NCBI GenBank assembly: GCA_027605045.1
Contig: JAQFWX010000038.1
Location: 186,001-250,000 of the forward strand
Length of the DNA stretch: 64,000 nucleotides
Direction of reading: 5' to 3'
DNA from: Phallus indusiatus
Lineage: Eukaryota; Basidiomycota; Agaricomycetes; Phallales; Phallaceae
The position numbers and the translations under genes were made by a program. Below are positions 36,941 to 41,284 of this stretch, piece by piece. Each line of letters starts with the position of its first letter. Positions within the stretch are counted from its first letter, which is position 1. Below the pieces are notes generated by a model. It made no database searches, was not told the origin of the DNA, and saw nothing but the letters and a program-made list of their open reading frames with translations.

Positions 36941-37783
36941 ATGAGCGTAACACTCAAAGATTACAAGGTTCGCCAATATCATTCCAACGAATATGATGCT
37001 TCTGTTTACTCAATTTTTGTGTTACCTCAGCTCTACTTGCAGAGAGTTCTTGACGAGGCTGTCGAATCTAAAGGATCGTTTGCCTTTCAAAAGTCTTATC
37101 AGGATTTTCCGAATCCGTGTCTCAGTGTCGAAGGCCTTGGTCAAATTGGACTCCCACTTTCTTCACGCGACGCCAAAGCACTCATTACGGAATGTTCACA
37201 GGCACCATTTGGACAGGGAACAAAGACTATTGTGGATACAACTGTTCGTAAGACCTGGCAACTAGATGCATCTAAAGTGAGTGATATGCTAGTATCTTGC
37301 ACTGTTCGCTGTTCATGATCAGTGGTTGATTGAATTATTTCAAAGGTTTCTTTTGAACATCCAAATTGGGTGGATTTTATTCGTAAAGTGCTTTGCGAGG
37401 CTTGTGAAGGCCTTGGTGTCAATTCTATCAGTCAGCCTGTCGGTGAACTTTACAAACTGCTACTTTACGAACCTGGCTCTCAGTGTGTTTCTCTCTTTTT
37501 CTCCGTCTTTTCATCGTACCTCCTGATTCTAAATTTAACCGTACATTTAGCTTCAAAGCCCATCAAGAGTAAGTGGACTAGCCAACATATCTGTACACCT
37601 GTAATAAACAACACACCATAGCACGGAAAAGAGCCCTGGTATGTTCGGAACCATGGTGATCATCCTACCTTCAAAATTCACGGGCGGAGACGTTCACTTG
37701 AAACACGCGGAATCTTCGAAGATATTCAAATGCAGCTCGAACAGCAATTTCAATATATCAGTACTCAGTTGGTATACCGATGT

Positions 37784-37795
37784 CTTCCACGAAGT
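37784..37795 (+). repeat. Target-site duplication, left copy (LINE)
   Basis: CTTCCACGAAGT is repeated exactly at 40240-40251. A 12-bp duplication of this kind marks target-primed insertion. Confidence 0.92.
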
Positions 37796-37854
37796 GTGTG
37801 TGTGTGTGTGTGAATCTTTGAGTCCCTGAGGGCGTAGCCCTATGTACCGGGACT
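37794..37854 (-). repeat. LINE 3' tail: (CA)n plus nested hairpin
   Basis: The element ends, on its own strand, in a CA dinucleotide run (37794-37812; its outermost bases overlap the target duplication). Just inside is a nested stem-loop: AGTCCC (37821-37826) pairs with GGGACT (37849-37854), enclosing AGGGC (37829-37833) pairing with GCCCT (37837-37841). A further stem (GTGGGGA...TCCCCAC) lies near 37930-37950. Such 3' structures are what LINE reverse transcriptases recognise in stringent-type elements. Confidence 0.75.
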
Positions 37855-38239
37855 TTAACATATGGAGATGGCCGGATCTCCTCATTTCGTGCCAGCGCTC
37901 GCTCAACCATAGTAATATGAGGTGTCGTGGGGATCTATGTCCCCACTGTTCAATTTCGTGTGTTCATCGCTCGTCTCCTCCTCCCTTTCCCTTTTCTCCC
38001 TTTCCTCCCTTCAACTATCGGAGTTTCGGGGTGACCGTAAGTTTGATATCGCTGATTGGGATTGACGGGATTCTTATCTGTCGTCGTTTGGGTTCCTGAC
38101 TTGGATCGGGTGTCGATGTTCGGATTGGTGTAGTCGGCATCTGTCTGGAGGGCGTTTCCTCTTCTCGTGGTTCTCGTTCGTGCCTTTTTTGAGGTGGTAG
38201 CTGTGTCTGTGGCCGTTCATGTTCATTGAGTTCCCAAGT

Positions 38240-38503
38240 TGTAACGTTTCGTTACAGTTTACGATTAGCCCGGTTCTTACGGACTCACAACAAACAGTAT
38301 AAAGCTGTATATTTGCAAGTGCAGGTAAGAAAGGCTGCCGGCGCCTTTACCGTTACGCGGTATTTACTGGTGTGACGGCGCCTATGTACATTACATAATA
38401 CTAGGTACTTGTGCAGACGACGATCGTCTGCATGCAATTGTATATATATACTAATATGTACTATGGGTAATAGTAGTCCGCTGGTCATAGCGGAACCGTT
38501 ACA
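38240..38503 (-). repeat. Solo LTR, family A2 (264 bp)
   Basis: Flanked by perfect 5-bp repeats CAAGT (38235-38239 and 38504-38508). On its own strand it starts TGTAACGGTTCC and ends TGTAACGAAACGTTACA, sharing both termini with the A LTR but not the middle. It too contains several palindromes: GCAGACGATCGTCGTCTGC, TCCGCT...AGCGGA, GGCGCC...GGCGCC and ACCG...CGGT. Inserted within the last third of LINE ORF1. Confidence 0.94.
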
Positions 38504-38604
38504 CAAGTCCAGTCTTCTTTTGTCCGAAAGTACTTATACTTGCTATCTTCCGTATTTTTTTCTAGCTCTCTAGCTGCTTCCTGGTACTTCGTGCAGGTTC
38601 TGTC

Positions 38605-38999
38605 TGTTAGGGCTACTCAGCTCGCACTAGAGGGAGGGGATCCTAAGACAATATATTGGAAGGGAAACTAACTACTCACCTAGAGGGAGGGGATCCTAAG
38701 AGAACAAGCTTAGGGACCCTCACTCTAGGTACAGTGACTATATACATAAATGACGACGCGGCGTGCGGCCCTGACACAGCTAAGTGCCAGGCGCCCAAGC
38801 CGAACCTAAGCGACGTGATGTCACGGGCATCACGCCGGGTACGAGCGCGCGACACGCGCGAGTAGGGAAAGTGAAATAGAGACAGAACGAGGAAACGGAG
38901 AGTGAAAGTAAAATATGGAAATGATAAATAAAATAGAAAAGAAATGATGCCGATGATAATAAATAAGAAAATGAGAGGCGGCGGTAGCGTACCCTGACA
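38605..38999 (-). repeat. Solo LTR of the B family (395 bp)
   Basis: Flanked by perfect 5-bp repeats CTGTC (38600-38604 and 39000-39004). It starts TGTTAGGG and ends CCCTGACA on the + strand, and is nearly identical to the reverse complement of 5897-6292, including the doubled GGATCCCC block. It interrupts the third zinc knuckle of LINE ORF1. Confidence 0.96.
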
Positions 39000-41284
39000 C
39001 TGTCCCATGAGGCATGCCCTTCGGTGTCGCAATTCGTGCATCTGAACTTGGTCTCGTCTTCAACTATGCAACCATCTGTTTCATGTTCTTCCGAGCAGGT
39101 GGCGCAAGTGGTTGCGTCTGACTTGCACTGGGCGGCTATGTGCCCCAGTCTCTGGCATTTGTAGCATCGTTTAGGTGTCCTCACCAGCTTCCTCGTTCTG
39201 ACTCTTTTGCCCTTGATTATGATGCCATCTCGTAGGATACTGTTTGCACTTTCTATGTCTTTGACCCGTATAATAAGATCCGCCGTTTCTTGACCTTCTT
39301 TCCGTTGTGTGCGCTTTTTGAGCCAGCTTGCCTTCATGATGCATCGGCTTTTCACCTCTGAAACCTTCTCGACCTTTCTTAATCCATCTTCGTTGTTGTC
39401 ATCAAAAGATACTGGCACCGATTCTGCAACTAGGGCATAGCTTCTGGTCTTGATTGCTACTGAGTGTCCGATATCATCTGAGACTTCTTCAGAATGCGCC
39501 TCCAGCCACCCGACTGTGTCCTCATCGCTTGTCTCCAACATGATTCCGCCGTTCTTCAGCTTTCGAGCACATGTGACTCTCCCTTGTGGTGCTGTGCTTT
39601 TGCCCTTTCCCACACGAGTCATTGATTGATTGACTTTCTTCACCAGCTCCTCCTCCATGAGCTCGTATAAGGTGAATTCTTCGTCATCTGAGGCTTTGTC
39701 CAGGAAGACCGTCCTTGCTTTCACATTTGGTTTCTCTGAACTTGGCTTAGGTGTTCTTCTTGTGATATCCGCAAAGGTCTTTGTATTGCTTGCAGGGGGT
39801 CTTTCTTGAGGTTTGCTGCTTTCAGTCGCTAGTTTCTTCAGAGTGTTCGTAGCTTCGCTGATTGTGTCGAGTGTTTCCTTAACTCTGCTTGCAATTGCCT
39901 CCGTTACCGCATTCGCATATCCGTTTGGTATCAGTCCTTGAAGGGCTACTCCCAAAGCCTTGACCGTGCTTTTGAGTCTGCCTGGGCTGGTCTCGTTTCC
40001 TTCAGATAGGGTAATCAACCATGGCGCAATGTCTTCCATTGTGATTTCTTCTTCTTTCTTCAGGAACCCTACTGCACATAGATATTCTTTTGCTTTCTTC
40101 ATGTCCGTAATCGTGCCGGTTTGGTTTGCCGTCGTTCGTCTCGTTTGTGTCCCTGCACCGTAGTCATCGGGCTCCGCAGGCATTTTCGAGCTTTCCAGCA
40201 GTTGAACTGGCTTTAAATGGTGTTTCTCGAAAGAAGATGCTTCCACGAAGTAAAGACCATTGACATGGGATATCGTCTCGCCCTTTCCTTCAACCTCCTC
40301 CATAAGAATACTGTGCACAAGCCTATTGTTCCTTCAGATATCGCAACCGGGGAATTAAGGCTAGCATTTCAGACCTGGTCACAGAGGAGAATAAGCCCTT
40401 CCCCAAGCAAATTGATATACCTCCTGGATCACGAGTACTCCGATGTCGGTTTACGAGCCTCTAGCCTTCTGAAAGGAATCGACGCCAAAAAGGTTGCAAT
40501 GATGTCACAAATTGGCACGCCACTAGGCTTTAAATTCGCTTTAGCTAAAGTGAAGCACACTATTCTCGCCGGCACGGACAACCCTTATGACAGTACCGTT
40601 TTGGGCAACATAGACTATATACATATGGAAGATATGGAATTCGAAACACCTGTCAATTTAGAAGGCTCAATCGTGGATATCGATATTACCAGCAATGAAC
40701 CGCATAGCGATAGGTCTCATCCGAGCCTTATGTACATGTACGGAAACAGCTACAAGAGTGTGTTCGTTCCTGAGGACCTTCCTAAGAGGATCAGGGAACG
40801 ACAGCCAGACGGCTGTTCCAAAGAACCATACCAAGGAAACGTAAGCCTTCCTAATTATTCGCTTCCGTATTATAAAGACTCACATAATGTATCCAGTATG
40901 GAGGCGACGCCAGTTTATGTAAATATGACCCTCCCAAGTACAATCCATTTTTGACGCTCACAACTCACTGACAGGGTACCATCGTACCGTTTTGGTTATC
41001 TGGCGCGATGATTCCAGCCAATATCCTGCTCAGCCTCCCCTAACGAAAAGGGTCGCACCTCCTAGAGATAAAATGACAGCGAGAAAACGCACGAAAGAAA
41101 ACTGATCTCCTGGAGTTGAGGCTTATAATTAAAACCCAATTCTATAAAATGGATGTACTACTGGCACAGGATTCGGGCTACGAATGCACAATGAACAACG
41201 AGATTTTTAGTTACACGATGTACAATCCCTTTAAAGTAGACTATAAATAAGACCTTGGAAGATAAAACCCAGTAATACAGTACT

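Follow-up and report, generated by a model that had tools for sequence, protein, structure and literature searches.

The window analyzed here is a 64,000-nucleotide stretch of the Phallus indusiatus genome (67.2 Mb, 206 contigs), comprising positions 186001 to 250000 of contig C138. It contains a LINE-type insertion on the minus strand that encodes an ORF1-type zinc-knuckle protein, is enclosed by target site duplications (TSDs), and interrupts a host coding frame. Its features are given below in window coordinates, followed by a second copy found elsewhere in the genome.

37608-37795, plus strand: host-gene coding sequence to the left of the insertion (flanks joined with one TSD form one open frame)
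37784-37795, no strand: TSD copy at the 3' end of the element, CTTCCACGAAGT (exact 12-bp repeat)
37796-40239, minus strand: ORF1-only LINE insertion, together with the two solo LTRs that entered it later; its 5' end is on the right and its 3' end on the left (TSDs; second copy of the same layout at L009)
37796-37812, minus strand: 3'-terminal (CA)n, read as (GT)n on the plus strand (sequence; LINE copies end likewise)
37798-37952, minus strand: 3' stretch common with the 3' untranslated region (3'UTR) of LINEs carrying ORF1 and ORF2 (83% over 156 columns to L029)
37821-37854, minus strand: 3' hairpin AGTCCC...GGGC...GCCC...GGGACT (alignment of 14 tails; folds; no covariation)
38015-38239, minus strand: ORF1 segment 3, the C terminus with the TAG stop at 38015-38017 (piecewise match to the C128 ORF)
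38240-38503, no strand: solo LTR 1, 264 bp, within ORF1 near codon 426 (absent in C128; dispersed copies; junctions)
38504-38604, minus strand: ORF1 segment 2, the 101 bp separating the two LTRs (identical to C128)
38605-38999, no strand: solo LTR 2, 395 bp, interrupting knuckle 3 near codon 394 (absent in C128; dispersed copies; junctions)
39000-40183, minus strand: ORF1 segment 1, from the ATG through the N-terminal part, the central domain, and two complete knuckles (1 and 2) into knuckle 3, of which it holds the first half (LINE ORF1 alignment)
40184-40239, minus strand: truncated 5' leader, 56 bp, against 152 bp in C128 (comparison with C128)
40240-40251, no strand: TSD copy at the 5' end of the element, CTTCCACGAAGT (exact 12-bp repeat)
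40252-40954, plus strand: host-gene coding sequence to the right of the insertion (flanks joined with one TSD form one open frame)
C128:371839-373705 (L009:5840-7706): second ORF1-only copy, matching all non-LTR parts of the window copy at 98.6 to 100%

The perfect 12-bp duplications proposed in a preliminary description of this DNA are present and enclose exactly the listed unit; a repeat of equal length was reached in 11 of 20,000 random pairs of 26-bp window stretches. When the flanks are joined over a single TSD, the frame is uninterrupted from 37608 through to the stop codon at 40952-40954, and the element therefore sits in a coding exon. The host frame around the insertion reads ...SWYTDVFHEV/KTIDMGYRLALSFNLLH... 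(slash, point of insertion). Pfam returned no significant match for the host protein, which may resemble 2-oxoglutarate oxygenases.

Two LTR elements struck the window copy after it had inserted, leaving solo LTRs bounded by 5-bp repeats (CAAGT on both sides of LTR 1 and CTGTC on both sides of LTR 2), as the preliminary description had supposed. Both LTR sequences match many dispersed sites in the genome. The LTR 2 family is very abundant, accounting for dozens of 81 genome match rows, some on the same contig. Outside the LTRs, the window copy follows the second copy closely (99.4% over 1,241 bp for the region of ORF1 segment 1 against L009). In that second copy, which is free of LTRs, the predicted 499-codon ORF1 is found intact, with exactly 499 open codons and the same stop as in the window. 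A tblastn search of the 64-kb window with LINE ORF2 gave no match at E values of ≤1e-3, in agreement with the claim that neither endonuclease nor reverse transcriptase is encoded.

The copy on C128 repeats the layout of the window unit, including an identical ORF1-to-tail junction, and likewise carries ORF1 with neither enzyme. It is flanked on both ends by its own exact 13-bp repeat (CCTTAGAGAGGGT), which was equaled in 2 of at most 20,000 random pairs (near pairs skipped). The 10 kb surrounding this copy matches the window only inside the element, and comparison of the 1-kb flanks of the two copies produced no match; an allelic or segmental duplicate is rejected on this basis. The ORF1-only form has thus inserted more than once, at two loci with their own TSDs and unrelated flanks. 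The layout of the window unit alone is what would be expected if a LINE copy had simply lost ORF2 in a one-time deletion and nothing else had followed, yet the same form occurs at the unrelated C128 site with a separate TSD and no LTRs. Because the C128 copy exists, we reject such a single internal deletion, whose probability we regard as very low.

A third locus (C24) holds a relic that is 89% identical over 930 columns, and carries a deletion of 10 bp, after which it breaks off, its 3' part being lost. No ORF2 remnant was detected in the 16 kb around it at E values of ≤10. The relic begins within 10 bp of the start of the C128 copy, which itself reaches 96 bp further in the 5' direction than the window copy (leader of 152 versus 56 bp). 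For these two reasons the window copy is 5' truncated, and truncation accounts for the difference in leader length between copies; the preliminary description had credited the window unit with complete ends, which does not hold for its 5' end. The family in this genome comprises two tailed copies (window and C128) and one relic (C24). A different public assembly contributes a 285-residue piece of the same ORF1 (P0002), which departs from the C128 protein at one residue, and that residue is the one found in the window copy.

The ORF1 protein contains three zinc knuckles that align with those of LINE ORF1 proteins, every knuckle cysteine and histidine being common to the four genome LINE ORF1s used for comparison (among which L045 and L047 closely resemble one another). 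Identity to these proteins over the whole alignment is 26 to 28%. Pfam reported one knuckle (zf-CCHC, E value of 5e-5) and did not recognize ORF1 as a whole, while a profile search of the PDB yielded eight weak matches (E values of 0.021 to 0.069), all zinc-knuckle proteins. Structure prediction for codons 1 to 394 from one sequence gave a mean pLDDT of 40 and was unusable. Five ORF1s were used in a profile search against 5.8 billion proteins; among the 7,996 candidates scored, it retrieved P0002 and a weakly matching fish protein. At their C terminus, the LINE ORF1s carry a longer, acidic tail that is absent from the ORF1-only protein. In L030:5202-6833, L046:101-1714, and L047:350-2047, this tail bears a QxxLxxF/Y-like motif that the ORF1-only protein lacks; we presume that it has the look of a PIP box.

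A search of the genome with the ORF1 protein returned 31 rows (34 of 34 candidates scored), six of which correspond to the window, C128, and C24 copies; the other 25 show 24 to 37% identity. The corresponding ORF2 search returned at least 46 rows (35 of 168 candidates scored). Among the ORF2 matches listed, a same-strand ORF2 lies downstream of all 25 of the other ORF1 rows and of none of the six rows of this family. The distance is no more than 2 kb in 20 of the 25; the remaining five, at 2.5, 7.2, 9.9, 11.9, and 20.6 kb, are taken as LINEs split by later insertions. Direct reading confirmed both ORFs in L029 and L030 and showed ORF1 followed by the beginning of ORF2 in L046 and L047, while the examined stretch of L045 stops at the end of ORF1. 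The ORF2 of L029 contains RVT_1, Exo_endo_phos_2, and RNase_H domains, and the ORF2 homologs with organism names among the 120 matches listed belong to mushrooms, including Trametes, Rhodofomes, and Armillaria. The possibility that all further copies would contain ORF2, raised at the outset as fatal to the ORF1-only reading, is not what the genome holds, as the other complete copy is also ORF1-only and occupies an independent site.

Spliced L1 insertions offer a parallel for a different account, in which the mRNA of an unseen full-length LINE recurrently loses ORF2 by splicing or template jumping, and the window and C128 copies are independent dead insertions of this by-product with no self-maintaining lineage behind them. 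The small number of copies and their identical ORF1-to-tail junction would both fit such an origin. Against it, among the 34 of 34 candidates scored, no ORF2-linked ORF1 exceeds 37% identity to this family. The sequence that separates the ORF1 stop from the shared tail was also compared with LINE ORF2 ends, and the candidate ORF2 relic was rejected, the three alignments being matched by 251, 441, and 500 of 1,000 shuffles; similarity no better than that of shuffled sequence at the junction argues against removal of ORF2 from a LINE transcript.

The 3' ends do connect the family to enzyme-encoding LINEs. The last 155 bp of the C128 copy are 82.7% identical to the L029 3'UTR over 156 columns, with the match ending at the L029 ORF2 stop, so that full LINEs sharing this tail, which the preliminary description had suggested looking for, are indeed present. 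A genome search with the tail returned 34 rows, consisting of one for C128, two for the window, and 31 others, and in eight of these 31 the tail lies directly behind an ORF2 row among the ORF2 matches listed. In 10 of the 20 loci examined out of the 31 (L023 to L030, L035, and L038), similarity to the L029 LINE continues into the body. Repeats of 10 to 11 bp abut both ends in four of the 20 (L027, L028, L030, and L035); an exact-match scan found no terminal repeats at the other 16. We conclude that the ORF1-only family sharing its 3' end with enzyme-encoding LINEs is real. The extent of tail divergence also counts against the loss of ORF2 from a full-length mRNA: the LINE tails present are just 83% identical to that of this family. 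Taking the two sides together, we consider that account unlikely and favor a distinct ORF1-only family.

The other 10 examined loci (L031 to L034, L036, L037, and L039 to L042) share only 59 to 134 bp of tail and no LINE body; they may be extreme 5' truncations or members of an unrecognized SINE-like family. L036 and L037 come from separate contigs and match at 98% across the 2.7 kb surrounding the tail; they therefore lie inside a larger repeat.

The structured tail, described beforehand as a hairpin plus (CA)n, was recovered with some qualification as to the hairpin. Its sequence is strongly conserved in 14 tails, with 96.4% of cells paired, and none of the 10 pairs shows covariation; the evidence for the structure is therefore the conserved sequence together with single-strand folding. 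Relative to shuffles, the fold is modest for C128 (z of -1.70, with 12 of 200 as good) and reaches a z of -3.29 for L029. At the opposite end, comparison of the 5' leader with L030 and L029 retrieved just a 9-bp match (BLAST E value of 0.51). The motif TTCTCACGC lies near the first base of both the C128 copy (L009:7692-7706) and the L030 LINE 5' end; given that E value, a shared 5' terminal signal is just a hint.

ORF1 is under purifying selection. Across 232 codons, 37.5 synonymous and 29.5 nonsynonymous changes separate the C128 copy from C24, giving a dN/dS of 0.20 (Fisher P value of 5e-10; as low in 0 of 2,000 neutral simulations). Because the 3' part of C24 is lost, this selection is not wholly assignable to the ORF1-only state, and the C24 ancestor may have been either an ORF1-only element or a full LINE. 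The C128 and window copies show 14 differences in 1,765 positions (six synonymous, five nonsynonymous, and three in the 3'UTR), for an ORF1 dN/dS of 0.24 that is not significant (P value of 0.09). The earlier idea of a family under purifying selection thus stands for the comparison with C24, and the comparison between the two tailed copies is suggestive only; continued selection on ORF1 after ORF2 was lost is only suggested. The weakness of the latter signal is a further point that dead by-product insertions would accommodate.

Purifying selection, together with the distance of this ORF1 lineage from the LINE ORF1s of the genome, is also what one would expect if a host gene had been domesticated from a LINE ORF1 and its retrocopies had acquired a LINE tail by chance. 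The three loci with a close ORF1 nonetheless look like element copies, two having TSDs and (CA)n and the third being broken, and no single-copy host locus is found among them. The tail, moreover, is common to many LINE insertions. Retrocopies of a domesticated gene are accordingly a very improbable source of these loci.

We therefore consider it likely that the copies represent a low-copy family of ORF1-only non-autonomous LINEs, putatively mobilized in trans by means of the tail shared with enzyme-encoding LINEs. In this model, a transcript with a leader of ∼150 bp would encode a single protein, the 499-residue, three-zinc-knuckle, ORF1-type RNA-binding protein, which may coat its own RNA. 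The RNA would end in the hairpin and (CA)n, matching the 3'UTR of LINEs that encode endonuclease and reverse transcriptase. The ORF2 protein of a partner LINE of the L029 type could then recognize the tail, nick the target, and act in trans to reverse transcribe the RNA, starting at the 3' end. Such a process would be expected to yield the 12- to 13-bp target duplications and occasional 5' truncation that are observed. The window copy landed in a host coding frame, lost 96 bp at its 5' end, and was later struck by the two LTR elements. A more extended version holds that this is an old, Gag-only fungal lineage (its ORF1 being ∼30% identical to those of the tail-sharing LINEs) that parasitizes their ORF2 proteins obligately and makes an RNA-binding protein for itself, with the tail kept close to theirs by selection, in a HAL1/HeT-A lifestyle that arose independently of animals. 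We regard the arguments for and against this version as evenly balanced.

Several known systems bear comparison. The fungal LINEs with apurinic endonuclease-like, reverse transcriptase, and RNase H domains (APE-RT-RNase H), here presumably of the Tad-like group, resemble this element in ORF1 architecture, in the 3' tail, and in the size of the TSD, and differ from it in possessing ORF2. Fungal SINE/LINE pairs with a common 3' end include Mg-SINE/MgL and SINE2-1_BG/Tad1-24_BG, as named in passages of PMC3747384, where the SINEs are of the tRNA type; the present element, in contrast, codes for a 499-residue protein. MoTeR2 of the blast fungus is a telomeric, non-autonomous element that shares its 5' 860 bp and 3' 77 bp with the reverse transcriptase-encoding MoTeR1 and probably uses its enzyme, an unrelated 786-bp sequence without evident function standing in place of the reverse transcriptase region, according to sections of PMC7367193. 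Unlike MoTeR2, which lacks one, this element keeps an ORF1-type protein, and its 3' end is shared with the partner while the leader has no convincing match.

Searches of titles and abstract openings, a scope excluding subscription papers and Repbase entries, found no description of a fungal ORF1-only LINE, and novelty in print is probable. In L1 cell culture, an Alu transcript made by polymerase II needs ORF1p as well as ORF2p, as stated in part of the report by Kroutter et al. (PMC2666806); a polymerase II-transcribed non-autonomous element might for this reason keep an ORF1 of its own. If our reading is true, elements that retain ORF1 while relying on borrowed endonuclease and reverse transcriptase evolved outside animals, within a group of LINEs marked by a specific 3' hairpin. 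Where the ORF2 of such a group recognizes a defined tail and the partner element provides an ORF1 for itself, the role of ORF1 in cis could be tested directly.

The closest parallels in lifestyle are animal elements. HAL1 (half-L1) of mammals is a non-autonomous LINE derivative that encodes only ORF1p and reportedly had several origins, by the account in portions of PMC5753468; the fungal counterpart of HAL1 envisaged in the preliminary description is supported by the C128 copy and the shared LINE tail, with mobilization in trans as the putative route. HAL1 derives from L1, for which mammalian recognition is tied to poly(A) in the relevant passages of PMC3747384, whereas this element has a fungal host, a three-zinc-knuckle ORF1 rather than an ORF1p of the L1 type, a hairpin plus (CA)n tail, a very low copy number, and mushroom ORF2 homologs among the 120 matches listed. 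HeT-A, at Drosophila telomeres, is a Gag-only non-LTR element without pol that is thought to use the reverse transcriptase of TART or TAHRE, as presented in parts of PMC5537684. HeT-A adds to chromosome ends, whereas this element inserts internally with 12- to 13-bp duplications, the window insertion being TSD flanked and within an open frame. The family therefore probably works like HAL1 or HeT-A and is neither of them.
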